DNA from: Heterotrichella gracilis
Lineage: Eukaryota > Sar > Xanthophyceae > Tribonematales > Xanthonemataceae
Direction: 5' to 3'
Assembly: GCA_032358255.1 (NCBI GenBank)
Contig: JAULBX010025997.1
Span: forward strand, 1 to 53,468
DNA length: 53,468 nt
Below are positions 3,167 through 52,939 of the stretch, piece after piece (the first letter of the stretch is position 1; each line of letters opens with the position of its first letter). A model generated the notes under the pieces. That model made no database searches, was not told the DNA's origin, and worked only from the letters and a program-made list of their open reading frames with translations. The translations under genes were made by a program, and so were the position numbers.

Positions 3167-6100
3167 TCACCCTCCCACCGACCCATGCCCATTCATTGCC
3201 CGCCCAGCACCCCCCACAACGCTGGCGCCCCGCCGCGCCCCCCGCCGCTGGAACCACCTCCCCACCCCCCACCTACGCTTGCTCCCCACCCCATGCAGCA
3301 TGTCCAGACCCTCCAGCTCCTGTTCCACACCCACCCGCAGCCACCCCGCCCACCGCAAGCCCCAGAACAAAACCCCGTTGAGGGTAACAGTCCAGGCGCA
3401 GATGCAGAGCGCGCCCAAAATTTGGATCCCCAGCTGGCGGCCGCTGCCCCCGTAAAACACGCCCCAATCATTAGCGTCCTGCAAAGCAAATATACATATA
3501 GATATTTTTTTTGCATCCCCAATTCTCTACCCAATCCCCAGTGAACCACAGCCCAGCCGCTGGCGACATTCCAAAATAATCCAATTGGATCAAAACATGA
3601 TGTCAGGATGTAATTGAAATCAAATTTTGACCCTAGTAGGATTGCAAAACGATCAAGCAAAAATTCATCTGATAATGTACCCATCTGCAAACGACAACCC
3701 TCCCCTCCTCCGCAAGTTACACATCCCCCACCACTCACCTGGCCATACACCACTTGCACTTGCTGCTGCGTGGCGAAAAAGCCCACCGCCACCAGGCCCC
3801 ACACCCCGCCCACCAGATGCACAGCAACCGAGTCCAAGGGGTCATCAATGCGCACCCTGCGCAGTAGTCGGGAGGCACCGGCGCACAGCAGCGCCGCTAT
3901 CAGCCCCACAACCACTGCGCGGGGGCACAAAAGAAGGGGTTTCAGAGCTGCGCAAGGGCCCAGAGTCGGGTACATTGGGCCACGGACGGGTGGACAGATT
4001 GTGGGGGGGGGTCATGGGCACTGCGCGTGGTTGGTTTGCAGCCTCTGCAGTAGGCGGGAGGCCCCAGCACACAGCAGCGCGGCTATCAGCCCCACAACCA
4101 CTGCGCGGGGGCAAAACAGAAGGGGTTTCAGAGCTGCGCAGGGGCCAGGGTCGGATACATTAGGCCATCGAGCGGTGGACACCGCGGTCATTGACACAAT
4201 AGCTACCAGGATGCCATGAGGAGTATGGCTGCGACATCACCAGGCTCCCTCAGGAGTATGGGCAACACCAGGGACACCATACCCCCCAGGGGCCCCCACC
4301 CCCCCTCCCCACCCACACCCCACACCCACACACCCTGCACCACCGCACCACCACCCCCAATCCCCATCACCACACAAACCACAGCCCTCCCCACCATCAC
4401 CGCACCTGCCGCGTACGCCTGCATCACCGCACACCCCGCATTCATGGACACCAGCGCCACCAGAATGCCGTGCAGCATGGCAGCCACATCCCCAGGCTCG
4501 CCCAGCAGCATGGCCAGGGTGAGGGAGGTCATCCCACCCGTGGAAGCTGCCAATGTGACGTTGATAGCTATGGATGCCGCTGTGCGCATGCATCCGTAGA
4601 AGCACTGGGTGGAGCCGGAGGTGGCGCCATACCTGTGGTGGGGTGGGGAGGGGGGGGGTCAGGAGTGAGTGATGTGGGAGTTCATGAGTGGGTGGTGCGT
4701 GGGGTTTTTTTTGAGCGATAGGATGAGATTTATGTGTGCATAGAAGCTGCCAATGTGACGTTGATGGCTATGGATGCCGCTGTGCGCATGCACCCCTAGA
4801 AGCACTGGGTGGAGCCGGAGGTGGCGCCATACCTGGGGTGGTGGGGTGGTGGAGGTGGGAACAGGGCGGTGTGTGTGTGCGTGTGTGTGGGAGGCAATAT
4901 ATGCGTGAGATTATGGACGCTTCCAGGTATTTGTGTTGATTGCGATGGTTGCCACTGTGCACCTGCATTTGCAGAAGCACTGGGGAGTTGTGGAGGCGCT
5001 GCAAGCTAGGGTTCTTTTACAGGGGTTTGGCAGGGTTTCCGAGCACATCTCACCATCCAAACCACAGTATGAAAGTGCCCAGCGCCTGGAAGGCAGGGTT
5101 GCACCCCGGCATCTCAATCACCTCCCCATCCACGGTGAATCGCCCCGTGCGTGGGCCCAAGATGGCGGCCGCAACCAGCGCAGCACCGCCACCTGTGTGG
5201 GGAAAACGGCTGTGAGAATGCAGGGTGCATGTAGGATATATAGTGGGTTATCGGCACAAGGACTTTTGTACATCACTGCGATGAAAAGAGGTGCATGTAG
5301 GGTCTTCAGGGGTAGTGATGTAGGGGGAATCGTAGGGTACAGTCGCCCCTGTGCTGGGCCAGGCCCACATAATGACGGTGGCTGCCACCAACCCCGTGCG
5401 GCTAGGAGGGCGCGTGCGTGATCAATTTAGGACGATTAATCTACATTGGGTGGGCGTGGTCAATTTTGGGTGATCAGCCTGAAACGGGGTTCGCATGATT
5501 ATGGTGCTATGCCTGCATCCAACTCAATGCCCTGTTTACCTGCATAGTGCCTTAAAATGCGGCAATATGCAGTAGAACAATAACGCATCCCCATCCCCAA
5601 CCCCCACCTGTCACGTGAATCACCCCGCTCCCAGCAAAATCGATAAGCCACATGCTGTCCCCCGGTAGGGAAGCCTCAGGTTGGCCGCTCTCACAGTCCA
5701 CCCTGTAAGCCGATAGCCAGCCCTGGGTGGACCACACCCAGTGCGCCACCACAGGAAAGCAGAATCCAGTCATGAAGATGGAGTAGACGACGTAGGACCT
5801 GCAGGGGAGGGTTTTGTTAGGGTTTGTTTGGAGCTTGCCCTTGCTTAGGGTTTTTTGTTAACTAGGGTCAGTCAGGGTTGCAAGCGCCACCCGCCCCCAG
5901 TGCGCCATCATCAAAAGCACAAAGCAGTCATGCAGATGGAGTAGTGACACAGGACCTGCAGGGGAGGAGGGTTTGGGTATATGTGCTGGGGTAGATGTGA
6001 GGGTTCGTGGTGAATGAGGATTTGATTAGGGTTTGGGGTAGCACTGGTTGAGTGTGCTGCGGCCGCGCCATTCAACCCCCAATCTGAGCTGCGCCCGCTC

Positions 6101-7931
6101 CGCCTATGGCTCCACGACAGAAATTGTCACCGCCAGTGCGCTGCGCCTCCATCCCCACATCCACACCTCCCTCCACGCATGCACCCTTTCACCCACCGAA
6201 CCAGCACCCTCGCACCCACCACACCAACAGCCTCCACCCACCCACCCACCCACCTGAGCTGCGCCCACTCCGCTGTCGGCCCCGAGACAATGGTCACTGC
6301 CAGTGCGCTGCATGCCCACCCCCACATTCACACCACCCTCCACCCACCGGACCAGCACCCTCCCACCCACCACCGCCTAGAACCTTCCCCACCCCCCATC
6401 TGAGCTGCGCCCCCTCCGCTATCGCCCTCGATACAATGCATTGGGTGATATATACCACTGCCAGTGCACTGCTCGCTCACCCCACATCCACACCACCCTT
6501 CGTGCATGTAGGCCTACGCCCCCCTCACCCTGGCATCCACCCGCCCCATGCACCTCGCCCCCCCCCCCCCCCGCCCGACCCCCCCCCCCCCCGGCCAGCC
6601 ACCCGCCCCCGGCCCCCCGCCCCCCCCCCCCCCCCCCACACCCACCTGAGCTGCGCCCGCTCGGCTATAGCCCCCGATACAATGGTCACCGCTAGGGCGC
6701 TGCGCGCCCACCCCCACATCCATATGCCCAGCTGCTTTAGGGTGAGGTCATCGAACCCTATCAGGAAGAAGTGGCTGTAACCGATGAAGCTGCTCTGGCA
6801 GGGCTTGCCTGCGTGGGGAGAGCACATCGTAAACGCTAAAAGTCCCTAGCAAAACAACCCTAAGTGGAGGTTGTATACCCTAGGATCCTGCGCACGTGTG
6901 CGTGGACACGAAGAACCCTAGAAAAGTGGGACCCTAGGTAAGGGTATTTGAACCCAGTGGCTGCAGCCGATGCAGCAGCTGTGACAGGGCTTGGCTGCGG
7001 GGTACTTACCGCACGTGCTGTTAGTGCGCGTGTAGTGCGTGTGGGGTGGGTGGGTGGGTAGGCGGTGTGTGCAGGCGTGGGTACTGGTGGTGGTGTGTGA
7101 GTGCATGTGTGTGCTGTGTCTGGGTGGTGGTGGTGGTGTGGGTGTGGTGCAGGGGTGCCGTACCCATGACTGATATGACCCAGTCATCCACCACGTGTGG
7201 CTAGGGAGGTGTGGTGGGTGGTGGGTGGTGGGTGGTCGGTGGTGGGTGGGCTGGGGCGGGGCGGCGGTGGCGTAGTGTGTGGGGTGCGGGCGTGGTGGGT
7301 GCTGCAGGGTGGGTACCCACTGCCTGATACCCTGCTGAGGGTATGCACGCACCTGTCCTGAAGGCGTACCCAGTGGCCCACCACATGAGCGTCCCTATGC
7401 ACGTGTCTATCACGTTTTTTAGCAGGATGTTGCGGGTGTTCTTGAACCGCACGCTCCCCGCCTCCAGCATGCCGAAGCCGCACTGCACGCCCACCGCCCA
7501 CCGCCAAAGTGAGACACGAGGGTGGTACCATAAGGGTCTACTATACGACCAGTACCCAAGGCACGGGGGTTCGGAGACTCACGTGTGTGTCCACCAACAC
7601 AGGCTCTTTTGACAAGTCTAGCCAAATGAGTGCGGTTGTGGCAAAGATACCGGCACTACTTAGACGCGCGCTATCAACTGTTATAAGTATGACCCACGTC
7701 CAACATAAGGGTGTACAAGTGGGCGATATTTACCATATGCTGGTTGGGTGGTGTGCACGCCTAGTCGCATTCACATGGATGGTGGCTGGGCATATGTGAA
7801 TATGACGAGCTCACCTGCATGAAGAATATGAGGAATGCAGCCAGCAGCATCCATTCGATCGTGAGTTCGTCGTTGAGGTCTCCATTGATCGAGATGTCGA
7901 TCTGGGGTACCGAGGTCTGGTTTGCTTCCAT
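3167..7931 (-). CDS. AMT: Ammonium transporter (AMT/MEP/Rh family), 8 exons, 484 aa
   Basis: Plasma-membrane channel that takes up ammonium. Exons in transcription order: 7815-7931, 7353-7482, 6646-6808, 5608-5798, 5054-5192, 4406-4632, 3739-3914, 3167-3478. All junctions are GT..AG and phases close to 484 codons plus stop, within the usual 450-510 aa. Diagnostic stretches are [19 protein letters not shown] (about residues 36-54), [18 protein letters not shown], and WFGWYG, whose Trp is split across the exon 5/6 junction. The twin pore histidines are present: H198 in VIHVTGG and H355 in [10 protein letters not shown]. The C-terminal tail has [12 protein letters not shown], like the regulatory tail of the family, then ends in an Arg/Gly-rich low-complexity extension to the stop at 3167. 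I chose the Met at 7931 because it opens the exon carrying the first helix. Introns are packed with partial copies of exons 3, 4, 6 and 7. Confidence 0.93.
4040..4178 (-). repeat. Echo of AMT exon 7 start with its intron end
   Basis: Copy of the acceptor region and the first 58 bp of exon 7 (3739-3914). The acceptor gcgcag is intact and the copy exon start at 4100 reads [19 protein letters not shown]. Similarity continues into the preceding intron (to about 4178), so the duplicated unit spans the splice junction. Confidence 0.88.
4203..4290 (-). repeat. Echo of the middle/3' part of AMT exon 6
   Basis: Translates to [23 protein letters not shown], against [22 protein letters not shown] in the true exon. 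It lies downstream of exon 6 in transcription. The frame stays open over about 25 codons, so it is diverged but not badly broken. Confidence 0.8.
4742..4832 (-). repeat. Echo of AMT exon 6 start, carrying an in-frame stop
   Basis: Near-identical copy of the first 90 bp of exon 6 (4406-4632) with an intact AG acceptor just before 4832. It reads [11 protein letters not shown] and then TAG at 4796-4798, where the true exon has TAC (Tyr). Inclusion would truncate the transporter in mid-protein. It lies in intron 5, upstream of the true exon. Confidence 0.9.
5885..5965 (-). repeat. Echo of the 5' part of AMT exon 4
   Basis: Resembles 5735-5810 (start of exon 4 and its acceptor) and lies upstream of it in transcription. 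The acceptor context cctgcagg is intact, but the coding part has indels. Confidence 0.75.
6083..6492 (-). repeat. Three echoes of the 3' half of AMT exon 3
   Basis: Copies of the segment coding [19 protein letters not shown] lie downstream of the real exon 3 (6646-6808) at 6399-6492, 6253-6330 and 6083-6162. The 6253 copy keeps the GT donor. In the other two the donor dinucleotide is changed (catctgag and aatctgag instead of cacctgag on the + strand). C-rich and CCCA-rich simple sequence separates the copies. Confidence 0.85.
6558..6637. repeat. Poly-C / CCCCG low-complexity tract inside AMT intron 3
   Basis: Several C runs of 10-18 nt are broken only by single G or A bases. It is likely to slip during replication and sequencing, so its length in the assembly is unreliable. 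Confidence 0.8.
7055..7280. repeat. G/T-rich minisatellite in AMT intron 2
   Basis: Irregular GGTGGGTGGT-type repeats on the + strand (CCACCC on the coding strand) fill most of the intron between exons 2 and 3. They are low complexity and not coding. Confidence 0.7.
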
Positions 7932-9500: not shown

Positions 9501-11507
9501 CTGGGTTTGGGTGGATGACTGCATCATACACAGCGGAGTAGTCTGTGTTGTCCAGCCCCCGCTCCACTGTGGATGCACACACATCCTCCAGGCCCTGCAG
9601 CAAGGAGGTTGACAGCCCTGCTGCCACAGCCTCCTCTTTGAACAACCGCACGTCCTTCAGGAGGTGCTGCACAAGGGGAGCAGGGGGTCGGTCGATTCTA
9701 AGGGATAACCCAGAGGAATGGCAGTCCATTGTTCGTTTTTGTTTATTGCTTTTGCATACATGAATCGTTCCAAACTTTTCCACAGCACCTCGCCAATGGT
9801 AATGCATAGGATCGCATGGGCATGCAATCATTCTGCTGCCAGATGATGGACTTGGATTTTGAAGCGGCACGTCTTAGGGTTTAGGTTAAACCACTCACCT
9901 TTGTGGGAAAGTTGGGATTGGAGTAGTCCCCGTCCAGCATGCGTTGCAGCTTCTTGTCAAAGGTGGGCGCATACAGGGCGCTGCCCCGCAGGATCTTCAT
10001 GAACTTTTCCACATCCACGCCGTTGCGCTCGACCAATCCCAAGGAAGTGGAGAACCCAACCTGGGGGACGCAACACACAAATAATGTGATTTAAACTCAG
10101 ATTAGAAGATATTGATCATCAACCAAAGAAAATTGTTGGCCTTTTATCCCAGGCAATTGAGTCAGCGGGGCCGGGTTTGGACCCACCATTACGAGGAGCA
10201 CCCTTTCACATGCGAGTGCGAATGCATGCACCCGATCCACCAACCCATCCACGTACCGTCAGGCTGGCGATCAGCTGGTTGAGCGAAAGCTTGACCGCCG
10301 CAGCACTGCCCACCTGCCCAATCCACTCGGGTGCCTGACCCAGCGCCAGGAGCACGGGCCAGGCAATGGAGTCTGCTGGGTCGGATTTGGACCCCACCAT
10401 TATCAGCAGGGTCCCTTTTTGGGCCTCGGGCAGGGATCCCAGCACGGGGGCCTCGATGTAATGCGCCCCTGCCGCCTCCACTGCCGCCGCAATGTCTTTG
10501 GTTTGCACAGGGCCTGGGGAAGGCAACAGGGGATGAGAAAAATGAGCATAAAAAGAATAGTGTGCATCGCTGGGGATGCCAAAGGAAGGGTTGGAATAAT
10601 GTATATATTTGATTATAAACAAGCTAAGAAACAACAGTAGACAAATCAAAGATATCCCCAGGGGTGTTAATATATAAACCAGGAATTATATTTTTTGTTT
10701 AACACCCCTGATATCCCTAATGCAGAACCCAAATGTACGAATGACGTCGCACCTATGGTCCCCATCTGCACCACCGTCTTCCCGGGGAGCGCCGCCCGCA
10801 CTTCCGGGGACAGCATCACCTCGGAGATGGCCCCCGCATCCGACAGCAGCAGCACAACCACATCCGCACCCCCCACCGCATCCGCGGCGCTGGCGGCCAC
10901 CGTGACACCCTCCTGGGCCAGGGGTTGGGTGGCTGCGGGTGTGCGGTTCCAGGCTGTGGTGGGGAAGCCCTGCTGCTGCAGGCGCAGCGCAAACTTGGCG
11001 CCTGCAAAAAGGGACAATTCAGTCAAGGTAACCCAGTAACCTGGACGTACTGGACCTTGTATTGTAGACCCCGCGTGAGTCTGTGTACGCATGGTCACTT
11101 AAACCCTAAACCCTAAACCCTGTAGGGTATGTGTACCCATGTGCCCTACCCATGACCGCAACGCCAAGCACCATCACCTTGGGCGCCTGCGGAAAGGGGA
11201 AAATGAGGCACATGGAAGGAGCAAGGAGCTTCTGTTTTGCGTACACAGCTCCACACAGCAACAATGCCCTTCAAGTGAGCACCTGTGTATACCTTGTGTC
11301 TTGTATTACTTAAGGCCATTGTTTTGGCCGATTCCGCACGGCGTTTTGCATAGGGTGCGCGAGTCCTAACCCATGCCGTATTAGATAGATCCTGATCCCA
11401 ACCCTTGCAAGGGTGGTTACAGTGTGTGTATGCGCCCTACCCATAAGCCCAATGCCGAGCACCGCCACCTTGGGCCTCGCCCCATCCCCTGCTGCTGCGC
11501 CATCCAT
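9454..11507 (-). CDS. GLYR: NADP-dependent glyoxylate/succinic-semialdehyde reductase-like (3-hydroxyisobutyrate dehydrogenase family), 5 exons, 315 aa
   Basis: Beta-hydroxyacid dehydrogenase that reduces aldehyde-acids such as glyoxylate or succinic semialdehyde. Exons: 11441-11507, 10753-11001, 10257-10513, 9899-10060, 9454-9666; phases close to 315 codons plus stop. The Rossmann motif GIGLMG is at residues 18-23, split after the last Met by intron 1. Substrate-loop EAPVLGS is at 126-132. Catalytic Lys180 sits in AVKLSLNQ, and the helical C-terminal domain ends FPTKHLLKDVRLFKEEA.... EAPVxGS and FP(L/T)KHxxKD favour the plant GLYR branch over mitochondrial HIBADH, which is inference from family memory. 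The start at 11507 gives a short leader; an in-frame Met at 11606 would add 33 residues and could supply a targeting peptide. Which is used is unresolved. Confidence 0.86.
10150..10206 (-). repeat. Echo of an internal part of reductase exon 3
   Basis: Resembles 10360-10415 (coding ...LLIMVGSKSDPADSIA...) and lies in the intron downstream of exon 3. Small indels break the frame. Confidence 0.7.
11143..11186 (-). repeat. Echo of reductase exon 1 (nucleotide-binding motif)
   Basis: In intron 1, a copy reads APKVMVLGVAVMG, against RPKVAVLGIGLMG in exon 1. It is followed by the same donor (gtaggg) and preceded by an AG at 11187-11188. The second glycine of GxGxxG is replaced by alanine, so a protein using this copy should bind NADP(H) poorly. 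It is 37 bp from AG to GT. Confidence 0.85.
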
Positions 11508-13237: not shown

Positions 13238-16200
13238 ATGGAGTCGATAGCCTACGTGGATGCCCTCATCAAGGAATACCTCTTGTTCCGTGGCTTCACC
13301 TCTACCTTGCAAGCCTTTAGCACCGACCTGGCCGACGATCACGGGTGCGCGTTTCAAGAGGACAAGATCACGGCAGCCATCTTTCGGGACTTCATCCCAA
13401 ACTTCCGATTGCACCAGCTGGTGGACCTGCTGACGTTTCTGAACGAGCGGGTGTACTGTAAACTCGACGCCAGCTACGAGCCGACCATCAACAAACTCGA
13501 GGTAACACTTGCATTGGCACGCCCTTCCGGTCTCGTTTTACTTTTTGTACTGTGGGCTGCATTGCCATGGCATGCCATGCCTTGCCAATATGCATGCATA
13601 TGTCCCTAGGCGTTGGGCGTGACAGCAGTCCCAGCCTTTCATGCATTGCCATGGCATGTGTGGCCACCACACCAACCAACCACTCCGCCGTGTTGCTGCA
13701 CCACCTGTGCAAAGTTCTTATTTAAAACCCTTCCCAAACCCTACCTAGACCCTAAACCCTAACCAATACCCTTCCCTAGGTTTCTGTCCTGCGCCTCTAC
13801 CTGGTGAACGCCTGCAAAGCCAAGCAACCGCAACACTTGCAGCAATTCTTTGCCACCCATGGGCGGGGACTGGCGGGGGGACGGGGGGCTGATGGCTGGG
13901 GACCATGGTTTGCCCTGCCCTATGTGGAGAAACCAGAGGAAGACCCGCGCTTCTTTGTAAGTGGTGCACTGACGCTGTTGGTGGCATTGCTGTTGCAGTA
14001 AACCACAACACTACTGTAGACGGTAATGCTTGTCAGGGCTTCCCCGAACCCTCTATGGCATTTACTGTCAGGGCTTGCCGCTATCATGCATGGAGAAATA
14101 AGAGGATAAATCCAGGGCAAATTATTGGTGGCGCATGCGAACAATCCGCTTGTGGCATTGCTGGATGAATAAGCGCGTAGGCTGGTGGAAACCCTTGCCC
14201 TAAACCCTTAACCCCTGCACTCCTGCAGAGCTTCTTCAACGAGCGGTGGGCAGGGCTAGTCGAAACCTCCTTCAGGAACTTCCTGGCGGCTGTCATCCAC
14301 CAGCTGCCCCTGCCCGCCATTCTGAGATTCAACCAGGATAGGGTGGAGCGACAGGTGAGAAATCCTAAACCCTCAACCGGAACAAAAACCCTAAACAGAA
14401 CCCTATGCATGTCATCCACCAGCTTACCTTTCCGCCATTCTGCGATTCAACCAGGACAGGGTGGAGCGGCAGGTGGAAAGCCCTAAACACTAAACCCTAA
14501 ACCCTAGGTCAGTCCCTGAGGCAAAGCCTGATGCAAAATTCTTGAATCGGATGACGGCCACCTGCCTCTTCCCGTCATATTTCGATGCAACCAGGATAGG
14601 GTGGAGCCACAGGTGGGAAACCTTATTGCAAATTCTTAGGTCAAACCTTAAACGGACATCCCCATCTATGCATGCAGCATGTGCTGTGTATAGATCCGAC
14701 ACCTCCCTTTGTCCAGCTACTAACAGTTCCATATATGTAGTGCACGCTGCATTGCACTGTCCTAAATCCCAGGGTTTCCCCACAGGCGCTGCAGAAAAAG
14801 GTGGAGGGCCTTACCGCTGAGCTGGCATCGGTGCAGAGCCAACTGGCACAGCTACAACAAACAGCGCAGCATGCACAGCACGCGCAACATTGTCAAGGGG
14901 AGGAAAACAACATTCCTTCAACATCCTCCCCCCCTTGTGCATCTGCCAGCAACGCTGCCATCCACCCGTCCCCCCAACCCACCACCCACCACGCCGCCCT
15001 CGCCCTCCCCACCATCACCGGCGTGCGAGTAACGCCCCCGGCAGGCGAACCCCGGGGTGCCCTAAACCCTAGCCTAGGGTATGGCGCGGCGGTGCTGACC
15101 CTACAGGAGAGGCTGACGGGGCACGAGGCGGCGTTGACTTGCTGCAAGTTTTCGCCTGTGGCTGCGAATTTGGCCACCGGGGACGCCGGGGGGGTGGTGC
15201 GCATTTGGGCCCCGGGGCACATTCAGGTGGGGGTCCGGGGGTGCTGTTGAAATTTGGCACTGGTTCAGGATTTGAGAAAGGAATACTTGTGCAACTAGTC
15301 ATTGAGCACCCATTGCCCGTAGGTTAACCGAGAGTGACACTGTGCATCACACCGTTTCCACATTATGGATGCCGTTTTCCATTACTGTGCCCATTCCAGT
15401 CCATTACGCATACCTTGCGATACACCGCAAGTACAAACCTGCATGTCCCCACCATCATATGTGCACCCTTCTCCACCCTACCCTTTACCCGCCTTTCTCC
15501 ATTCCCCAGGGCGACGCCACCCGCTGCGCCACCATCAGTTGTGCGGACCCAATCACATTTATGNNNNNNNNNNNNNNNNNNNNNNNNNNNNNNNNNNNNN
15601 NNNNNNNNNNNNNNNNNNNNNNNNNNNNNNNNNNNNNNNNNNNNNNNNNNNNNNNNNNNNNNNACCCTCCACACTGCACCTCTGACCTCCCCGTTTTCCT
15701 CCATTCCCCAGGGCGACGCCACCCGCTGCGCCACCATCAGCTGCGGGGACCCAATCACATGCTTGGCGTGGGACAGCAGGGGGAATAGAACCCATGGGGG
15801 ATGCACTCCATACTCACTTCATTTCATCCGCAATTTGCCCTTACAACCCCACACACTCTATTCCTCCACGCTGCCCTTCACCCGCCTTTCTCCATTCCCC
15901 AGGGCGACGCCACCCGCTGCGCCACCATCAGTTGTGCGGACCCAATCACATTTATGGCCTGGGACAGCAGGAGGCATAAAACCCTGGGATGCACCCTCTC
16001 CTCCCTTTCCACCCACCACACTACCCACATGTGCACACTACCTTTACCCTCCACACTGCACCTCTGACCTCCCCGTTTTCCTCCATTCCCCAGGGCGACG
16101 CCACCCGCTGCGCCACCATCAGTTGCGGGGACCCAATCACCTGCTTGGCCTGGGACAGCAGGGGGGATAAGACCCTGCTGGTGGGGACGGCGGGGAAGGG

Positions 16201-18058
16201 GCTGCGCGCGTGGCATGTGGACACAAAACACATGCTGGCCACCAGCGCCCCTGATCCGCTGCACCCCAGGGTGGTTGACATCGCCTGCAGCCCCCTGGAA
16301 CCAGCCTTTGTGTGCTCACAGGTAAACCCTTAATACCCTAAACCCAGAATCACAAAGGCGGAATTGGTGACGTGCATGCCGATGGATCCTACCTGTGTAC
16401 TCACTGGTTCATCCTAACCCCTAAACCATAACCCTGGCCCCCAAACCCAAAACTGTTACCGGTTTTTCTTCTATCACTGAAACCCTACGCAACCTTAGGG
16501 CCTCCCACAACATCGCTCTCCCTGCCAATCCTGCTCACAATGTAACCCCCCCGTTGCCCGCAGCACGGTGCAGAGCTGGCAAACAAAAAGTGGCGGACAA
16601 TTTTGATAAAATATCCTTATCCATTTCCCTTCACCCACCCCACATGACCGTTCCCGCATTGAACCCCCCCCCCTCCCCTCATCCTCACAATGCCACCCCC
16701 TCTTGCCCGCAGCATGGTTCCAGGGCAGGGGGCAAGCTGTCGCTGTGGAACATGCGCGCATTCAAGCGCACCCACACCTTCGCAATCCCCGGGGATCCGC
16801 TGGTCACCTCCTTGGGATTTGACTCGACAGGGAAAGCGGTGCTGACCGGGGCAGAGGATGGGGTGGTGCGTGTGTGCTGAACCCTAAATCCTAAAAATGT
16901 CAAGCTTAAAACCCTAAACTTTGTTCGGGGGAGGGGGCACGAGGTGTTTCTGGGCTGTCGGGAGGTTTTGTTCTCTTCGTCAGCTGATTTCAATTCCCCA
17001 TGGACTTGCCAGTAGGATCGAACTGGTTCTGTCCCTATAATTTGACTTGACTGGCAATGCTGTGCTGATGGGGTGCGGAGAATGGGGTGGTGCCCATGCG
17101 CTGGATCGTCAGGTCGACCTCCTGCAATCCGGCATCTACTAAATATAGATGCACAGATTGTGTATCAATGCGGTGTATGGGTATCTGTTGACACTACGTA
17201 CATGTGCAGGTGCGGGTGTATGATGCAGCAGCCAAGGCGGATAGTGTGAGCTGGGTGGCCAGTGGGGTGAAAGGGGGGCTGGTGGCACGCTACTGCAGGG
17301 GAGGGAACCACGTGCTGTGCCTGGATGCGGCAGGTGAGGGGGGGGGGAAAGGGAGGAAGGGGGGATGTTTTGCCCAACGGGAGTGGATGCCCATGTGTGA
17401 CGGCTTGATACATGCGGTTTAGGAAGGTTATGTTATATAGTTTAGGGTTCTGCCTTTGGACAATGAGGTAGGGTTTTCCCACCTCCACTGTGCAGATGTT
17501 TTCTGGAGCTAGAATGAGGTTCGTAGCATGCAGCTCCTGCCCAGGTTGGGGTTGATCAATCGGGGATCTTTGAATGCAGGGTTTTGCGATTTTGGGACCC
17601 TAAAGTAGGGTTTTTCCACCTCCTCTTTTGCAGGTACCATGAGCCTGTGGGACCTTCGAAAACCTGGCACCAAACCCCTAGAGTCATTGAATTTGGGACC
17701 TTTGCTGGCCAACCCCGGGCCGTCGGCCCCCGCATCCCCCAGCAGTGGCGGTGCGGGTGGTGGGGGGCTGAGCGTGGGGGTGCGTGGTGGGTGTGGCGCC
17801 GCCACCAGCCCCAGCGGCCGGCTGCCATGGGTGGAGGTGGGGGCGGAGGGGGGTGGGGGGACGGGGGCCCTGTCGCTCACGCTGTTTGACCTGGCGCCAG
17901 GCGGAACCATGCCAGGCAGAGCAGTGCCAGGTGGAACGGTGTCAGGTGGCATCAGTGCGGTGGATGTGCACGGCAGCCGGCGGTGTGTGTGTGTGTGCAG
18001 GGGTGGGGCAGGGGTGGTGGAATTGTACTCGTGTGGCGGTGGGGTGGAGGGGCGATGA
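13238..18058 (+). CDS. WDR91: WDR91-like LisH / coiled-coil / WD40 protein, 8 exons, 645 aa
   Basis: In animals WDR91 is an endosomal Rab7 effector that lowers PI3-kinase output during early-to-late endosome conversion. Exons: 13238-13501, 13780-13956, 14229-14354, 14786-15226, 16094-16321, 16713-16865, 17210-17333, 17634-18058; phases close to 645 codons plus stop. The N-terminus (MESIAYVDALIKEYLLFRGF) is a LisH-type dimerisation region. The WDR91 block FFNERWAGLVETSFRNFLAAV...LPAILRFNQDRVERQ falls in exon 3, a coiled coil at about 190-220 (ALQKKVEGLTAELASVQSQL), then WD40 blades from about residue 295 (LTGHEAALTCCKFSP...VRIW). Exons 4 and 8 carry low-complexity inserts. Exon 4 encodes GALNPSLG from a telomere-like ccctaaaccctagcc, unusual in coding sequence; that piece could instead be an unrecognised intron. 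The region before exon 5 is a tandem array with an assembly gap. Confidence 0.85.
14076..14166 (+). repeat. Decayed echo of the WDR91 exon 2 end
   Basis: Resembles 13905-14000, with catggagaaataagagga echoing tgtggagaaaccagagga and a shared gtggcattgctg tail. It lies downstream of exon 2 in the same intron. It is heavily diverged. Confidence 0.55.
14411..14612 (+). repeat. Two echoes of the WDR91 exon 3 end
   Basis: Copies at 14411-14472 and 14551-14612 repeat the end of exon 3 (CAACCAGGATAGGGTGGAGC plus CAG) and both keep the CAG|GTGG donor. The first still reads VIHQLTFPPFCDSTRT-like in a shifted frame. CCCTAAA repeats separate them. They lie downstream of the true exon. Confidence 0.9.
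15484..16093 (+). repeat. Four-acceptor tandem array before WDR91 exon 5
   Basis: The same acceptor (cattccccag) and exon start (GGC GAC GCC ACC CGC TGC) occur at 15510, 15712, 15903 and 16094; only the last continues into a long exon. Spacings are 202 (including 100 N), 191 and 191. Copies at 15510 and 15903 share tgtgcggacc...atttatg, and copies at 15712 and 16094 share tgcggggacc...tgcttggc, so the array has a two-unit higher-order repeat of about 382 bp. All copies start in the same phase. Confidence 0.93.
15564..15663. other. Assembly gap, exactly 100 N
   Basis: The run of 100 N interrupts the first echo of WDR91 exon 5. A round number suggests a placeholder. If the 191-bp period held across the gap, 89 bases would be missing, or 89 plus multiples of the repeat if units collapsed. 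Confidence 0.95.
16513..16600 (+). repeat. Echo of the WDR91 exon 6 acceptor and start
   Basis: gttgcccgcag followed by CACGGTGCAGAGCTGGC mirrors cttgcccgcag followed by CATGGTTCCAGGGCAGG at 16702-16730. The copied exon start would be at 16564. It lies upstream of the true exon 6, and the copied reading frame decays after about 10 codons. Confidence 0.8.
17031..17095 (+). repeat. Echo of the WDR91 exon 6 end
   Basis: Resembles 16815-16880 (tttgactcgacagg...gatggggtg|gtgcg) and keeps the gggtg|gt junction at 17089. It lies downstream of exon 6, so exon 6 has an echo on both sides. Confidence 0.85.
17465..17520 (+). repeat. Echo of the WDR91 exon 8 acceptor
   Basis: gtagggttttcccacctccactgtgcag at 17468-17495 mirrors gtagggtttttccacctcctcttttgcag before exon 8 (17634). 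Only the intron end and a few exon bases are copied. Confidence 0.75.
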
Positions 18059-18862: not shown

Positions 18863-18904
18863 AACCCTCGGTTTCTCTTGATTCATTTCCCTCCCAGCGC
18901 AACC

Positions 18905-38000: not shown

Positions 38001-38617
38001 TGGGTGCGGTATGGGGTAGGGCAAGGGGAGGGATTATGTGAGCAAGATGATGGAGGAGGGAGGGGGGCTGAGCATAGCAATGGGTGGAGGGGAATTGTAC
38101 AGGTAATGCCCCCCTAACATGGCTATCATTGATGCTACCACCACAACACCTAGCCCCAGGGGAGGTCTAGATGATCGGTGAGGGGGGCGCCTGGTGCTGC
38201 GGCAAGGTGGGCGGGCATGTGTGGGGGTGGGGATAGGGAGGAACATGTGGCAGGAGTGAGGGGGGTAGCACATTTCCACTGGTACAGGAGTTGCCCAAGT
38301 CTACTGGCAACCGTTCATACTGGCAACCATTCGTGCTATCCTGCTTTTTATTCCTTGGTCATAGGATGTCCACTCGCCCCCCTAGGGCAGGTCAATGTGC
38401 CCTAAACCCTAAACCCTAAACCCTGGCGCAGGTCAATGTGCCCCAAATCCTAAACCCTAAAACCTAAACCCTAAACTCTGGTGCAGGTCAATGTGCCCCA
38501 AACCCTAAACCCTAAACCCTTAACCCTGGTGCAGGTCAATGTGCCATAAACCCTAAACCCTAAATCCTGGTGCAGGTCAATGTGCCAGCCAATCACAGCC
38601 CGTCAGCCCAGGGATAA
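35060..38617 (+). CDS. Plastid-type membrane protein with two EF-hands, 6 exons, 354 aa; family not recognised
   Basis: Exons: 35060-35471, 36268-36426, 36728-36855, 37132-37337, 37882-37999, 38576-38617; phases close to 354 codons plus stop. The first ~55 residues (MLLSSGKSSYTRPVRLTARS...) are Ser/Arg/Thr/Ala-rich and basic, like a chloroplast transit peptide. A SAP-like helical stretch follows (KDLKQRGIDKAMAKRVLEMW), then hydrophobic segments around 130-190 that suggest membrane insertion. EF-hand 1 is D286-E297 (DTNDDGELDRDE), canonical for Ca2+. EF-hand 2 is D322-E333 (DKSGDKKIQFTE) with Lys instead of Gly at position 6, so binding may be weaker. Function is unknown; a Ca2+-sensing plastid membrane role is inference. 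The start could lie further upstream in the same frame. The last intron ends in five tandem acceptors, so the C-terminal residues depend on splice choice. Confidence 0.75.
36455..36530 (+). repeat. Echo of EF-hand gene exon 2 end
   Basis: gatgtggatgtggggaccctggcaaccactagcctggcatac-type sequence mirrors 36369-36412 (coding DVVTLGTLAATSLTY). It lies downstream of exon 2. Confidence 0.88.
36920..36983 (+). repeat. Echo of EF-hand gene exon 3 end, with a stop
   Basis: Copy of the region coding FKVVQTLNQIADMLK, followed by the same AAG|GTGGGGTGTGAA donor context (junction at 36967). An in-frame TAG replaces part of the TLNQ codons. It lies downstream of exon 3. Confidence 0.9.
37430..37535 (+). 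repeat. Echo of EF-hand gene exon 4 end (degenerate EF-hand)
   Basis: Encodes ALLFVQYDTTDDEELGMDEFKKL, against ALLFVQYDTNDDGELDRDEFQKL. Asn3 and Gly6 of the Ca2+ loop are lost and the donor TG|GTGCGT has become TGCTGCGT. It lies downstream of exon 4. Confidence 0.92.
37650..37825 (+). repeat. Short tandem repeats in the intron before EF-hand gene exon 5
   Basis: accactgatcactcgctgatca (37656) recurs as accactgatcatttgctgatca (37734), 78 bp on, and more weakly near 37805. No coding content. Confidence 0.7.
38380..38580 (+). repeat. Five tandem splice acceptors with CCCTAAA spacers
   Basis: The string gcaggtcaatgtgcc occurs with its exon-type start (GTC AAT GTG CC) at 38391, 38432, 38487, 38535 and 38576. 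Spacings of 41, 55, 48 and 41 bp equal a 20-bp core plus 3, 5, 4 and 3 heptamers of (degenerate) CCCTAAA. Only the last runs into the non-repetitive tail VNVPANHSPSAQG and stop. All five are equivalent acceptors in phase 0. Confidence 0.95.
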
Positions 38618-40601: not shown

Positions 40602-42699
40602 ATGGCCAGGCGCCACCAGATACACCACATGGCCACCATGGCTGACCTCCCCGCTGCCCTGCTACACAACATCCTCGCCAGGCTCACCCACGCCCAGCAA
40701 GCCCGGGCACAGACGGTCTGCAAGGCCTGGAGGGACGCCCTGGGGCACACATCCCCCTTGTGGGACAGGATCCAGTTTGAGGGGAGCGATGCCCAGTGGC
40801 TGTACGATGAGGCCGAGTGGGCGCCCTTTGCGGCCTGGATGGCGCCCCGCCTGGCGGCAGCGAGTTGGGTGTCGATGGAGTTCCCAGGCCCCGAGGGCGC
40901 GCTGAGTCAGCGCCTGAGCGAACACCGGTTCGGTGTCAAATGGGGCGACACGCTGGTGGGGTGGTTGCTGGCCTGCCTCACACCCTCGCGGCTGGAGCTC
41001 CTGTCACTGCGCAACGCCCTTCGCAGCCCAGGCACCCGGGAGCTCCGGCTCTTGCACGCCTTCCCCGCCCTCACCGCCCTCCACATGGACACAGGGGAGG
41101 GCAGCCTGCGCTGCCTGGCCCAGCTCACCACCTTGACCAGCCTGCGCCTGCGCTTTGACCCACAAGGCTACCATCCCATGCTGCTGCCCCGGGCGCTGCG
41201 GGGGCTTGAGCTGGATGTGTTGGACGAGGACCCCACCACGTTCATCGGGAGGGAAGCCGGCCTGGCAGCCAGTGTGCTTGCAGAGGTCAACCGCCCGACA
41301 GCGCTCACCCGCCTGGTGCTGCTCCTGCCACACTGGGACGTTAGGGTGGACTTGTCGGGGTGCACCGTGCTGCAAACGCTGGCCATCAGGTGAGGGCTGC
41401 ACCCCAAACCCTAAACCCTAAACCCTGAACCCTAGAAGAGGTGAGTGCTGCACCACTGGTCTCACTTGCTGTTTCTTGCTTGCTGTACGGTGCCACTGGC
41501 TGCGCAATTGGCTGTCCAATTGGAGGATAGCACGTGATTTGCTCATCGCCTTGAAGCCAGCCTGAAACCCTAAAACCTTATAAAAAAACTGAAAATACTA
41601 TTGTATTTTAACAGCCGCCTGTTCCCTCAGGTGTGATGGATATGTGTCGCTGCCACGTGGCGGGCTGCCGCCTTCCCTGGAGCGCTTCAAGTTCCTGGAA
41701 GGCTTGCATGGTGGCTGCATCTGGATACGGGACGGCTCCCTCCCCGCCTCCCTCCGCACCTTGCACCTGCAGGACGTCAACTTTGAGGGCTCCCAGCCTT
41801 GGGGCTGTGGGCACCCACAGCTGCAGGTGTTGAGCATCAGCGTGCTCATGTAGAGGCAATATCTGCAGGTGAAATAAAAAAACAAATGAATATCTGCGCA
41901 GCCTGTCCATGAACAGGGTCGTTGGTGAATTGAAGGACGAGGGTTTAGCACCACTTTAGTGAGTAGCTTTACCAAATTTAATTTTACTGTAGTGATTTTG
42001 CTTGTTGGCTAAATTCTCTTTGTTAGCATCCATACAACAAAAACTAAAATTATTTATAATTTTTAATTTCAACAGCTTGACTATTTCCCCCTTTTGTCCA
42101 CTGTTTCCCTTACCACTTCCCCCTGTCTGCAGCTGATGTACCATTTCCCCTATCTGCAGCTGATGTACCATTTCCCCCATCTGCAGCTGATGGAGTGCCT
42201 GGCCCGCGCAAGCTTGACCCACTTGCGCCAGCTATGCATGCACTTTGCAGACCACCGGGCCTACCCAGTCCCAAACAGCTCGACCCTGGCTGCGATTGGG
42301 CTTACAGATTCGGTGGCCAACGCGCAGTCTGGCCACAACTCGACTCAGCTGGAAGTTCCAGCGTATGCCATCGGGCACCTAGTTCCAGTGGAGGTTCCCT
42401 GGCTCCCTAGCCTTCGTGAATTCGCCTGGCAATTGGAGCACACCATCGCGCTGCGGCTGCGCACTACCCCCGAGGCGTGGGTGGATCTGGAGAATCTGCT
42501 GTGCGGGGGGGATGCGGGGGGCAGCGCACGGGAGAGGAACGTGGGGGGTGGTGTGTGGTACCGGTGGAGGCGGCTGCCAGGTGGCAGCTGCAGCCTTGCT
42601 GTGATGGATAGCAGCCGAGGCAAAGGACAATCGTTTGGGCTGCCAGTTATGCAGGAGGTGTGGTTTTTGCGCAGCATGTCTGAGAAATATTGGTCATGA
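40602..42699 (+). CDS. F-box protein with leucine-rich regions, 3 exons, 498 aa
   Basis: Likely substrate receptor of an SCF ubiquitin ligase. Exons: 40602-41389, 41631-41826, and 42187-42699 with the last of three acceptors; phases close to 498 codons plus stop. The F-box is near the start (MADLPAALLHNILARLTHAQQARAQTVCKAWRDAL, about residues 13-47), as expected for Skp1 binding. Leucine-rich stretches follow (RLELLSLRNAL, LTSLRLRF, LRGLELDVL, LTRLVLLL, LRTLHLQDV, LTHLRQLCMHF), irregular in period, probably an LRR solenoid that selects the target. The second Met (40632) or third (40641) would also preserve the F-box. If the intron after 41826 were retained, the frame would stop at 41853. The target is unknown. 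Confidence 0.8.
42128..42192 (+). repeat. Three in-frame tandem acceptors, 27 bp apart, before F-box exon 3
   Basis: ctgcag followed by CTGATG occurs with exon starts at 42133, 42160 and 42187. Each 27-bp unit codes LMYHFP(Y/H)LQ, so using acceptor 1 or 2 instead of 3 adds 18 or 9 residues without changing frame. Confidence 0.93.
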
Positions 42700-48395: not shown

Positions 48396-48578
48396 ATGCC
48401 ACCAGGGCCAGGCACTGATGGAGATGCCACAGACTGGTCTCAAAAGCCTGTGTCCGCACTCAAGGCCTACCTGCTTGATGCTGGTGCTGACTCCAGCGGG
48501 TGTGTAGAAAGGGAAGACCTGGTGGCGCTGTGCACCAAGGTGGAGCGGGAGCGCATGATGGCATCTAAGGCACCGCAG
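48396..48578 (+). CDS. Candidate first exon of the ARM-like gene (SAP-like motif)
   Basis: Opens at ATG 48396 and runs 61 codons to CAG|GTGAAG. It contains WSQKPVSALKAYLLDAGADSSGCVEREDLVALCTKV, which resembles the short helix-loop-helix (L-K-x-Y-L...G-C-x-E-x-x-D-L) found at the end of several ubiquitin-ligase and ARMET-type proteins. It could be the N-terminus of the downstream gene or a separate small gene. The link through 49.1-49.4 kb is not settled, because that stretch is itself duplicated. Confidence 0.45.
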
Positions 48579-48714
48579 GTGAAGGGGCTAGTTGCCTATC
48601 ATGACCCAGCAGTCCACCATGATAATCCTGGCGCGCATGGCATGCGGGTGACGTGATTGCAGGGACTGCAAGGAGTGCAACCCATGCCCTGGTGATTGCC
48701 TTGTGCTAACACCG

Positions 48715-49270: not shown

Positions 49271-49380
49271 ATATAATCAAATGGCTCACCCGTCCTTGAC
49301 TGTCTGCAGGTGTCTAGCAGCACCGTCACCAACATGGTCCATGGAGGGCGCAGTCCACAGGGCACTGCCAGTGCCAAGGC
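49105..49380 (+). repeat. Duplicated candidate exon starts (VSSxTxTNMVHGGR)
   Basis: After tgtgcag at 49103 and ctgcag at 49308 the same exon-like start occurs: VSSRTATNMVHGGRNLVHL and VSSSTVTNMVHGGRSPQGT. Both are phase 0, like the exon ending at 48578. Which copy is coding is unclear. It follows the exon-echo pattern. Confidence 0.7.
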
Positions 49381-49895
49381 CGGTGTAGACAGCAGGCACA
49401 GCAGGACCCTGCCTTCCCCACAGGGCATGTCAACTGCGCCTTATCAGGGTGCCACGCAGCGGTGCCACGCTGTACCATCTTGAGGAGGCCATTGGGGCAG
49501 CATTGCAGCTTCCAGTGCGATACTGGCCTACATCTAGCAAATATGTAATCTTTGCATGGTGCAGGTGCATGTGATGCCTGATTGATGTAGAGATAGTGAC
49601 TACACTCCAAGCACTCGTGTACTTTGCAAAATGTTACTCATGCCAGGCGTATGTCACTCTTGTCACTCAGGTTCTCCTTCAATTATCTATCCTATGATGC
49701 ATGGATGGGTATGGCGCACTGGTATACCCGCCCATTATGGAAGGTTTTGGCCTAGCCTCGCGGTCTATGCTTTTGTAGTTTCAGCCAGTGATTGTGGACA
49801 AAACATTGCATATTTGTGTGGAGACCTTAGGAACGTGCTGCTCCTGGCCTGGCTGCTTAGGGTTCAGGGTTTAGGGTTTTTGCCTTGCCCAAAGA

Positions 49896-52800
49896 ATGGA
49901 GCGCTACACTGCTGAGTCACTGCTGCTGAGGTGGATACATCAGATGGTGAAGCTACATGATGAAAGCCTTGTGGTTGACCTGGTGTCGGGCACTGTGGTT
50001 GGTTTCTTGCTGGGTGATATCCAGGAGATGCCATCGGGTCAAGTGGTAGGTGGTAGGTGGTAGGTGGCCAAACACCTGCACAACTGCATATGTGCATGTG
50101 GGTTGGTTTGTAGGGTTTTACGTTTTTGATAATGGGTAGTATACAACCCATGCATACTCATTCAGACTAAAAATCTGTGCATTACAGGTAATTCAGCCAG
50201 ATGTCTAGACAAACTGATTACAATTGCGTGGACCACTGTAAAATGGGCTCATCAAGGGCCAGTATGCCAATTACTTTGTGTGTGTTGCAGGCGATTGAGA
50301 TATATGCTGAGAGGTTGAGAATCACCCAAAATTTCATCGCTAGCTTGCCCATGCCTTTGGCCCCGCACCTTGAGCCATTCAATGTGGCGATTCCACATCT
50401 CGCAAGAGTTTACACAGCAGGTGGGTAAAAGCCATGGTTACTTACTTCTAGTGACTACATTCTGCCGCAGGCCCTGGTTGCTTGTATAGCTTTGTGACAC
50501 AGTCAACCTGGGAGCCGCAAGGCTATGCAGGGTTAAACCCTAAACCCTAAACCCTAAACCCTTGCAGACGTTGCACTGCACTGAGTATGCTATTTAACAT
50601 ACATACTCGCATTCCATGCATTCCTTCTCAGAATCAAGATTAGCAGCAAATTCCTGTAAATACTGCAACATCACTGATGTGTCAAAATCCTCCTGCCAGT
50701 ACTGTCAGGGTAGCGGCTTGAACAGGTTCAATCCCTTGCGCGCCAGAGGGTCCCTTACCTGATAAAGAAATTGGTGGGCCAGCTTGTGTGGCCCTATCCC
50801 GCCCTCTAAACCCTTCACCCACAACACTGCCACATAGCTTGCACTGCAGCAATCCCTGTGAGACCTGCCATCTATGTGCCCCTGCCAGATGCGATTGCTC
50901 AGTGAGATCTACACAGACCACTGGCAGGGTCCAGACAGCCCACTGACAGGGTTCAGGGATTAGGGATTAAGGTTTAGGGATTAGGGTTTAGGGTCCACAC
51001 AGCCCACTGACCACTTGTTTGGGCCGCTGAACAGGGCTCACATAAGAGAGCGATGCCCTGAATGCGGTTAGCTTGCGCGAGAATGTCCTGCAGATCTTGA
51101 GAATCTTGATGAATAATGAGGATAGGAGAGCAATAGCAATGGCTGCAGCACCAGGGTTTGTGGATGAGGTACGGTTACAAGCACTGCTTTTGAAATGAGC
51201 CAGTACAGCGTAAAACTGTGTTCATCACCTATTGACATCATACAGTTGTGGTGCTGATTTGATTACCGTGGTAAACTATTGGTGCATTTTCCTCTTTTTA
51301 TATGGGAGCATCTGCTGCTTGCGCATGTTCAAATGGTGAGTGAGTATCTGAGGTTGAGGAGCACTGAACCCGTCAAGAATGACTACCTACAGTGCTGCCT
51401 TACCCTTGTGGCAAGGCTGCTTGTGCGTGATGGAGTCAAGGTGCCCAACTGGGACCAAGTACGCGGCTGCGTTTGCAAGATCATTGCCCAGTGAAGTGTG
51501 CACATGCAAGTCACCACTCATCACAATCCATTGGAGGCTTGCCAGCTGGCTATGCAAAGAAACACTGGTGTACTTGAAGTACACAGGCAGCCATCTCTTG
51601 TATGGATGAAATCGCACCATTATTGTTACTACTTTGATTAAATGTGGACGCCTTTTTGAGAGGCTCAAGCTTGCTGCTACCAAAATGGTAGCCCGTGCAG
51701 TACTGCTTTCAGGCTATTAGATTATCTTGCTTTCGCCTGTAGTTTAATGGCTGACTGTATTTTTTTATATCACAATTGCTGGGTCTTGTGCCAGAAAAAA
51801 AGTATTGATGTGATTGTAAATAGTTTTAAATGACGGTTGTCGACACCGTATGCCCTGCATGAGACTGATCTGCACGTCTGTGCCCATCTGCACAGGTTGT
51901 TGATATGCTGCTCCAAGACATTGCCGCCTGCATACACACCGACCCCTACAGGATGTCCAGATCCATTCAGGAAAAGGGCCATTGCTGCATTCATGGCCTC
52001 ATGGCAGCATTGGACTTTCTATGCAGCACATGCTGCACTGAGGCGAAGGAAAGGCTCATTCAATCAGGTACAATAAGCTGCAATGCAGATGGTCCCATAT
52101 AGTAACAGGTGTTCAATGACATCTCAGACGCGGCGTTTTGCCATGGGCAGGCATTGGCAAGAGGATCAAGCGGCTGCAGTTCTGCACAGGGCATCATGTC
52201 GCAGCCAGATTTGTAGATTATTTAAGATCTCCAGCATTTTTTTACCAGGCCAATTTAGATTACCTCCTATGAAATAAGCTCCAATACAGATGGTGCCAAA
52301 TAAGGTATTCACAGAAATCTGCGTGTTGACGTGCACAGGCATCAGGTATTCACAGATATCTGCGTGTTGACGTGCACAGGCATTGCCAAGAGGATCAAGC
52401 GGCTGCAGTTCTGCACAGAGCAGCCTGTGGCAGACGCCGCGCGTCGCTGCCTGAAAATCATGGCACTGCATGGTCCTGAAGAGGTGCTGTGCAACGAGAA
52501 GGTGGCGAGTGGCAGGGCTCCAGACCAGGTTTCGGTGGGATGCACAGCCTTGGATGGTTTAGAAGGTGAGGTCCTTTGGGATGACAATGCTGGTGGATTG
52601 GGACATGGACTAGCTGTCACACAAGCAGCTGCTTGAAAATCAGAGCATTGTTTTGGATTTACAGTTTGACAAAACCATTTTGTTTTTGTTGATATGTGCT
52701 TGTTACTGCACTCGAGCAACGCTTCTGAGTTTCCATCATGATTGCAATATCTAAAGTTTTGCGACATCTAGTTATCTTGGGTTACCTTAAGATACATAAA

Positions 52801-52939
52801 GTTTTTCATGACTTTCTCGTTGTTTGCAATGTGTGCAGGGGTCAATAAGGAGTGGGTGGCATCCATATCTGAGCTCATGATCCACCTCGACACAAGCAGT
52901 CCAGGCACCTCTTCTGAACCTCCAGCATACCAACCTTGA
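49896..52939 (+). CDS. Helical ARM/HEAT-like protein of unknown function, 7 exons traced, about 336 aa
   Basis: Exons: 49896-50045, 50291-50420, 51047-51168, 51309-51458, 51896-52067, 52380-52565, 52839-52939; phases close to 336 codons plus stop at 52937-52939 when started at ATG 49896. The sequence is almost wholly amphipathic helix (AESLLLRWIHQMVKLHDE, LRENVLQILRILMNNEDRRAIAMAAA, DYLQCCLTLVARLLVRDG, HCCIHGLMAALDFLCSTCC, GIAKRIKRLQFC), which suggests an armadillo/HEAT solenoid, but I do not recognise the family. More 5' exons are likely (candidate at 48396-48578). Junction 51047 and the acceptor at 51309 have weak polypyrimidine tracts. An alternative end reads through the donor at 52565 to a stop at 52636. 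Exon 6 has an echo and a duplicated acceptor upstream. Confidence 0.6.
50534..50562 (+). repeat. Telomere-type heptamer cluster (CCCTAAA)n
   Basis: Four consecutive CCCTAAA units lie in the ARM-like gene's intron. It is one of at least a dozen such clusters (others near 11102, 11788, 13750, 14488, 22023, 38400-38570, 39680, 41405, 46710) in both orientations relative to genes. The opposite strand type (TTAGGG-like) occurs at 50950-50995. Confidence 0.9.
52070..52379 (+). repeat. Echo of ARM-like exon 6 start and a 41-bp tandem acceptor duplication
   Basis: At 52151, after gggcag, the copy reads (G)IGKRIKRLQFCTGHH, against (G)IAKRIKRLQFCTEQP in the true exon (52380). The preceding intron block aataagct(g/c)caat(g/a)cagatggt is also doubled (52072 and 52264). 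Directly before the true exon, a 41-bp unit ending gacgtgcacag|gcat occurs twice, giving acceptors at 52339 and 52380. Using 52151 would add about 40 residues and stop. Confidence 0.9.

Follow-up and report, generated by a model that had tools for sequence, protein, structure and literature searches.

Tracts of telomere repeat have been inserted at double-strand breaks during their repair in rodents, primates and horse, and for the minority that carry a target duplication the authors inferred staggered breaks (PMC2246262, PMC7215372; for these and the other papers cited, our statements apply to the portions accessible). CST-guided fill-in of 3' overhangs by Pol alpha-primase, combined with Ku-dependent joining, gives tandem copies with the length of the overhang (at least 43 bp in the tests reported; PMC8355091), and direct repeats of 4–30 bp have been reported near intron borders (PMC11782384). 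Here we describe a 53,468-nucleotide stretch of DNA from Heterotrichella gracilis (contig JAULBX010025997.1; the whole stretch is called the window), one contig of a 68.5-Mb, 903-contig assembly, in which introns hold decayed copies of the adjoining exon edges, referred to below as echoes. The origin and lengthening of introns is an old question with few systems that show all stages of decay, and this genome appears to preserve a single process at many dated steps, part of the events being labelled by the telomere repeat; this would tie telomere biology to gene structure and make intron growth directly testable.

Direct copies of exon edges

Exons of the window were curated for ten genes, the ARM-like model being partial and the reductase lacking its first exon or exons. 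Each edge was used as a 100-bp query, and a match was taken as significant when it scored above all 60 shuffles with z > 6. Copies of 15 of the 50 donor edges were found in their own downstream intron and 2 of 40 in the upstream intron, while for acceptor edges the upstream intron held a copy in 14 of 50 cases and the downstream one in 5 of 40; as reverse complements, none of the 50 donor or 50 acceptor edges gave a match. Several of the seven wrong-side matches come from short exons, where the query spills onto the opposite edge. The echoes claimed in an earlier note on this DNA are thus present, and its by-eye count of about 45–50 is close to a lenient listing of the window, which holds 46 alignments at non-zero offset for 31 edges.

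Self-alignment and shuffling, both proposed in that note as checks, point the same way. Within the window there are 69 direct and 2 inverted pairs (E < 1e-3), and 50 of the 69 have starts less than 500 bp apart. In the window together with 25 other loci, at offsets of 50–600 bp, 173 direct pairs stand against 3 inverted ones and none in locally dinucleotide-shuffled sequence; 24 hairpin-like inverted matches at offsets below 50 were excluded from this count, the method being blind to direct pairs that close.

The 25 loci (L006–L030) amount to 250 kb of the 68.5 Mb, or 303 kb with the window. Their coordinates were chosen blind to content, but L006–L025 lie on 9 contigs preselected for a telomeric 21-mer, and their exons are unvalidated predictions from a gene finder built for this analysis. 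Extending the search to these other scaffolds, as the earlier note had also suggested, gave echoes for 33 of 200 donor and 22 of 200 acceptor edges (55 of 400), with reverse-complement and other-intron controls at 1, 0, 0 and 1 of 200 each (2 of 800). In the window, 24 of 51 intron spans (3 of the 51 from the partial ARM-like model) carry an echo, as do 48 of 203 introns in the sample, and the spread between loci is wide (L024, 8 of 9; L018, 0 of 14; L029, 0 of 12). L006–L025 contain 106 pairs and 47 of 165 introns with an echo, and L026–L030, on contigs outside the 21-mer listing, 7 pairs and 1 of 38. Echo frequency is thus uneven, and the sample mean may be too high. Introns with an echo are longer than the others (medians 464 and 272 bp, p = 3e-5).

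The copies derive from genomic DNA. Of the 46 alignments in the lenient listing, 36 extend at least 10 bp into the intron side, which indicates a genomic template and rules out cDNA as the source. A stop of homology exactly at the splice site, considered as a possible rule, was seen in some pairs only. Copies of exon ends lie downstream and copies of exon starts upstream, a placement that the earlier note had reported with the caveat that part of it follows from taking the contiguous copy as the exon. This caveat was borne out by the geometry: when a donor is spanned the first copy stays in use, and when an acceptor is spanned the last one does, which forces this arrangement on the echoes. Its description of local direct duplications of many ages across splice junctions, in which the copy joined to the exon is retained and its partner stays behind in the intron, holds.

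The echoes it had listed by gene were mostly recovered. This applies to the ammonium transporter (AMT; 3' ends of exons 3 and 6, starts of 4, 6 and 7), the MYSM1-like gene (3' ends of 7, 8, 9 and 11, starts of 3 and 10), the EF-hand gene (3' ends of 2, 3 and 4, start of 6) and the acceptor of the ARM-like gene. In the WDR91-like gene, the 3' ends of exons 3 and 6 and the start of 5 were found, with donor 2 and acceptors 6 and 8 not significant, and in MTO1 the 3' ends of 2, 4 and 7 and the starts of 2, 10 and 11, with donors 9 and 10 not significant; MTO1 exon 11 is the last exon in the curated model, which puts its donor outside the edge test. For the reductase one donor stood, exons 3 and 5 falling short of significance, and F-box exon 3 was below threshold (z 4.3), a 27-bp array of three copies being present there. 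Acceptors AMT 3A and MYSM1-like 8A, and marginally MTO1 3A, are further echoes absent from that list.

Spacers and the telomere repeat

The two copies of a pair are usually set apart by unduplicated sequence. A spacer of more than 10 bp is present in 144 of the 173 pairs, including all 24 with at least 90% identity, and the other 29 (spacer of 10 bp or less) look contiguous; tandem duplication, as proposed earlier, suits the latter and not the former, and as sole cause it is ruled out by the spacers of the youngest pairs. Spacer counts are based on 115 of the 173 pairs (spacer 12–300 bp, non-overlapping, low-complexity ones removed). Median lengths in this non-redundant set are 66 bp for the copy and 95 bp for the spacer, with a median offset of 179 bp. 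Offsets form broad humps near 105 and 190, with no sharp nucleosome-sized peak. Among 104 testable spacers, 83 match neither of the adjoining stretches (beyond the second copy, ahead of the first), and unduplicated spacers are found in the youngest pairs too. For example, 75-bp copies at L014 (4995–5174) are 94.7% identical and enclose a 30-bp telomere-like spacer, and 48-bp copies at L016 (8245–8372) surround a 32-bp telomeric spacer.

Telomere repeat, to which the earlier note makes no reference, is enriched in these spacers. The fourteen 7-mers of TTTAGGG reach 5.16 per kb, where dinucleotide composition predicts 0.66 and the reversed words reach 1.04, and such a word is found in 52 of the 115 spacers (random segments of the same length, mean 13.7 and maximum 27 in 500 draws). 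Telomeric bases make up 7.2% of the spacers, 2.3–3.2% of copies and flanks, and 1.5% overall. In descending classes of identity, 9 of 19 (at least 90%), 10 of 28, 21 of 35 and 12 of 33 spacers carry a word, so that the telomeric share is not simply fading with age. Over 26 loci, the density of pairs is correlated with that of telomeric words (Spearman 0.75), also without the words inside pairs (0.58, p = 0.002). Some of the loci L006–L030 are rich in both echoes and telomeric words, and others are without either.

Conversely, direct repeats surround telomeric tracts. Such repeats flank 17 of 40 perfect (TTTAGGG)3 tracts (score at least 34; copies of 25–95 bp) and 6.2% of 1500 random places; in the controls, each tract's own reverse complement scored 29 at most and 240 cross-locus comparisons 26 at most, and at a looser cut of 25 there were 21 of 40 direct against 5 of 40 reverse-complement matches. 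A copy end lies within 6 bp of the tract in 14 of the 40, compared with 2.9% of the 1500 random places. Tracts of at least 14 bp in the window and sample gave 24 of 55 with flanking repeats and 16 of 55 with a close copy end (one tract, L062 inside L016, belongs to both the 40 and the 55). For 11 of 95 tracts (10 distinct), neither copy end is more than 8 bp away from the tract, the duplications being 22–77 bp long. At L054, an open frame runs into the first copy up to the donor GTGCGTG, followed by a 37-bp CCCTAAA-type spacer and a 77-bp copy of the exon end and donor; this is an exon echo with intact filler. We take the protein encoded there to be dihydroxyacid dehydratase.

TTTAGGG is very probably the telomere repeat of the host. 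Arrays of eight units occur in 11 contigs, in 6 of these on the minus strand and no more than 200 bases from the contig start, in the other 5 on the plus strand, and there are 834 exact telomeric 21-mers in the 68.5 Mb, chromosome ends included. In the window minus the ARM-like region, tracts of at least 14 bp are found in introns (11) and intergenic DNA (5); exons, 26% of the bases there, contain none of the 16. On the sense strand of the curated window introns, CCCTAAA words number 232, spread over 22 of the 48 introns, and TTTAGGG words 109, spread over 16, while predicted introns elsewhere are closer to parity (397 and 311). The motif CCCTAAAC is presumably branch-point-like. Two MTO1 donors (22505–22559 and about 21186–21220, minus strand) read GTAGGGTT, the telomeric word starting right at the splice site.

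Origin of the duplications

We consider it fairly probable that the echoes are one copy of long target-site duplications that arose by repair of staggered breaks, often with telomeric filler. Two close nicks on opposite strands would leave overhangs of about 20–150 nt, and their fill-in would leave the segment present twice. Filler DNA would be added between the ends, a large share of it as telomere repeats put on the 3' end by telomerase, and end joining would close the copy–filler–copy structure; spacers with no telomeric word may have the same origin. A 3' overhang is preferred in this model because it would suit both telomerase and CST/Pol alpha-primase. Duplications wholly within an exon would usually be purged, and those in introns or spacer DNA would soon decay past recognition. 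Where a splice junction is spanned, the exon-contiguous copy would stay in use while the other copy and the filler became intron, lengthening it by as much, and repeated events at a single edge would build up arrays of echoes. The genome has coding sequence for Ku domains and for a telomerase RNA-binding domain; searches for CTC1 and STN1 found no match, with controls equally silent, and are uninformative.

Several observations weigh against the staggered-break model. About half of the spacers are without a telomeric word, including 10 of the 19 in the youngest class (at least 90% identity), and the three non-telomeric spacers examined are single copy in the genome. In a broader set, telomeric words near copy ends are at chance (19 of 49, with 19.8 expected), 23 of the 40 perfect tracts have no direct repeat at a score of 34, and tracts in the window are not significantly nearer to splice junctions (p = 0.15). 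Of the 104 testable spacers, 21 do match a neighbour, mostly in multi-copy arrays among those inspected. Of 39 window pairs, 29 touch an exon. With pairs placed at random and visibility doubled, a share of 35% would be expected (p = 6e-7), and 52% once whole-exon segments are included (p = 0.006), so that ascertainment alone is insufficient to account for the excess at exon edges. The third-position mismatch ratio of echoes is 2.56 (95% 1.97–3.39), above the 1.65–1.99 of simulated neutral echoes and below the value of about 3.0 at an omega of 0.5. Lastly, no empty site was seen in the one near-paralogue in the genome that was compared (L014), where the extra stretch in one copy has neither an echo nor a telomeric tract.

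Among the alternatives, the one that survives best is the insertion of a copy, in which an intronic break would be repaired by copying a nearby exon edge (synthesis-dependent strand annealing or a polymerase-theta-like process) and the spacer would be old intron. The 63 of 112 pairs (3 telomeric-copy pairs dropped) with no telomeric word in the spacer tend to have longer offsets (Kolmogorov–Smirnov p = 0.027), which counts in its favour; the three single-copy spacers also fit, and vertebrates provide known cases of proximal repair-mediated duplication that takes in splice sites (PMC2671141). Against it stand the strictly direct orientation (173 to 3) and the telomeric spacers with cleanly abutting copy ends, which would need an insertion themselves. 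We regard copy insertion as unlikely overall, and as most serious for the non-telomeric half of the pairs.

Repeated plain tandem duplication or slippage over the junction, with the intronic parts decaying later, would account for the 29 contiguous-looking pairs and for the short perfect arrays that occur. As the main process it is contradicted by the 24 pairs of at least 90% identity, none of which is contiguous: an unduplicated spacer cannot decay while the copies on either side stay 90–97% alike. We find this explanation improbable.

Alternatively, the echoes could be functional, as mutually exclusive exons or alternative splice sites. In the 30 echoes used for the codon-position test (chosen without the reductase and ARM-like genes and without echoes that were weak or short), mismatches amount to 9.7, 8.6 and 23.5% at the three positions, and 17 have neither a frameshift nor a stop in the matched part, which together with the third-position excess would fit such a role. 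The other 13 are broken by a frameshifting indel or stop, simulated echoes at an omega of 0.3 or less give ratios of at least 3.9, and most echoes are partial exons. As a general account function is very improbable; it is possible that some copies passed through a phase of coding or of alternative splicing.

A mobile element (introner) carrying telomere-like sequence would match the general look of an insertion with flanking duplication, and is scarcely credible given duplications of variable length (25–95 bp), young telomeric spacers that are little more than repeats, and spacers that form no dispersed family, non-telomeric sequence common to several spacers not having been seen in the 303 kb, where dispersed repetition is scarce. 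A separate inverted pair of about 1.1 kb at L030 (3807–4890 and 6263–7354), 85% identical and with further copies in the locus, is probably a mobile or repeated element. Assembly artefact, suggested by one N gap within the WDR91-like exon 5 array, can be dismissed with near certainty, as copies diverge by up to about 30% and are found on many contigs.

Of 270 introns, 5 are bounded by a splice-site-supplying duplication over a threshold reached by 0.3% of random pairings, several of them low in complexity, and intron birth with both splice sites in the duplication is at best rare. The signal for birth by AG^GT in both copies was weak, and this was rejected as a general route. Two telomere-containing, seemingly exon-internal duplications (L009, 3735–3877; L016, 9080–9279) carry AG^GT at corresponding positions of the two copies, and are candidate newborn introns. 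We suggest, tentatively and with more doubt than for the break model itself, that telomerase could be one of the main drivers by which introns grow in this genome: it would act routinely at genic staggered breaks, its insertions with long flanking duplications would have built a large share of intron DNA and would occasionally create introns, and the repeats may supply splice signals, as at the MTO1 donors (GTAGGGTTT).

Features of the window and comparison with described systems

A Pfam scan of five window proteins detected ammonium transporter, GidA/MTO1, Myb and JAB (MYSM1-like), WD40 and EF-hand domains. For an OST3/6-like protein, the named matches are from Volvox species (34–35% identity) and the best matches overall are at 39–44%; by such similarities the proteins of the window would place the host with the green algae. 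Rfam and tRNA scans across the window gave no match. The window is poor in CpG (observed/expected 0.54) and rich in CA (1.42), which suggests cytosine methylation. The coordinates of genes and echoes are given in Table 1. Within the AMT intron 3 array there are about 80 bases of nearly pure C (6540–6640). In the WDR91-like gene, four near-identical copies of the acceptor and exon start lie over 15471–16177 with an N gap among them, and the assembly may be unreliable there.

Table 1. Genes, exon-edge echoes and a telomeric tract located in the window.
Feature	Position	Strand	Remarks
Ammonium transporter (AMT) gene, 8 coding exons, PF00909	3167..7931	-	open curated model; Pfam E 6.8e-98
AMT exon 7 start echo with at least 60 bp of acceptor-side intron	4038..4159	-	offset 185; exon part 55/63, intron part 54/59 identical
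AMT exon 6 end echo, adjoining exon 7 echo	4179..4287	-	offset 252
AMT exon 6 start echo with acceptor	4743..4891	-	offset 199; exon part 87/90 identical; weaker second copy 4914-4999
AMT exon 4 start echo	5891..5975	-	offset 149
AMT exon 3 end with donor, three echoes	6079..6490 (6079-6163, 6192-6330, 6343-6490)	-	
AMT exon 3 start echo	6956..7002	-	offset 186
Reductase exon end echo (exon 11441-11550)	11127..11184	-	offset 291; telomeric tract nearby at ~11100
WDR91-like exon 3 end (14229-14354), two echoes	14410..14674	+	CCCTAAA-type repeats between copies
WDR91-like exon 5 start (exon 16094-16321), three echoes	15471..15986	+	100-base N gap between first two
WDR91-like exon 6 end echo	17023..17103	+	offset 223
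MTO1/GidA gene, 11 exons (curated model), PF01134	18900..24650	-	Pfam E 8.1e-133
MTO1 exon 10 start echo (exon 19650-19808)	19944..20092	-	offset 232
MTO1 exon 7 end, two echoes	21002..21185	-	donor GTAGGGTTT; filler telomere-like
MTO1 exon 4 end echo	22439..22504	-	offset 101; telomeric repeats begin at donor
MTO1 exon 2 end, two echoes	23544..23765	-	
MTO1 exon 2 start echo	24090..24169	-	offset 190; spacer 23980-24119 single copy in genome
MYSM1-like exon 11 end echo	28051..28156	-	offset 207
MYSM1-like exon 10 start echo	28926..28983	-	offset 199
MYSM1-like exon 9 end echo	29099..29232	-	offset 219
MYSM1-like exon 8 3' part echo	29641..29720	-	offset 195; 90.5% identical, frameshifted
MYSM1-like exon 7 end echo with donor GTGGGT	30212..30290	-	offset 201; spacer 30291-30412 contains CCCTAAACCCTAAACCC
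MYSM1-like exon 3 start echo	32431..32481	-	offset 210
EF-hand gene exon 2 end echo	36462..36543	+	
EF-hand gene exon 3 end echo	36921..37010	+	
EF-hand gene exon 4 end echo	37414..37554	+	offset 183
EF-hand exon 6 start, acceptor CAG/GTCAATGTGCC, four times	38380..38586	+	CCCTAAA repeats between copies; last copy is the exon (curated model)
Telomeric tract ~15 bp past F-box gene exon 1 donor	41399..41434	+	
ARM-like exon start echo (exon start 52380)	52106..52204	+	offset 237; acceptor also has a 41-bp repeat, two copies

The open-licence literature, with subscription journals mostly outside it, yielded no description of long duplications filled with telomere repeat that give rise to intron sequence. 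The statement in the earlier note that no genome was known to grow introns in this way was too strong, as neointrons in Daphnia are reported to lengthen through repeated staggered breaks (PMC4202315). The likeness lies in the direct repeats left by staggered breaks and in the repeated bouts that lengthen introns; in Daphnia, the repeats shared with exons are 4–12 bp long and lie in neointrons, and the accessible text makes no mention of telomeric filler, whereas here established introns are concerned, with copies of tens to more than 100 bp and telomeric filler. Mammalian interstitial telomeric sequences are likewise short tracts at breaks, some with direct duplication of the target, as here. 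Such duplications mark 6 of 130 loci in rodents, 4 of 25 in primates and 3 of 66 in horse, compared with 17 of 40 tracts in this genome (copies of 25–95 bp), and, unlike in mammals, exon edges and introns are strongly affected.

The CST/Pol alpha system shares the logic of duplication by fill-in, but was described from experiments in mammalian cells and, in the portions accessible, with no mention of telomeric filler. Proximal duplications in vertebrates resemble the echoes in that nearby segments, including splice sites, are copied next to their source (PMC2671141); they differ in a mean separation of 1.2 kb and in having been detected through interrupted transposons, against 0.05–0.6 kb, direct orientation only and telomeric spacers here. 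Introners also shape introns by insertions that duplicate the target site (PMC9860276), but they are repeated elements with duplications of 3–9 bp, whereas here there is no repeated element and the duplications are far longer. In published cases a duplication across an intron–exon boundary creates a new intron, while in this genome it is existing introns that grow and clear births are rare. The ingredients are known, and it is their combination and scale that look new.

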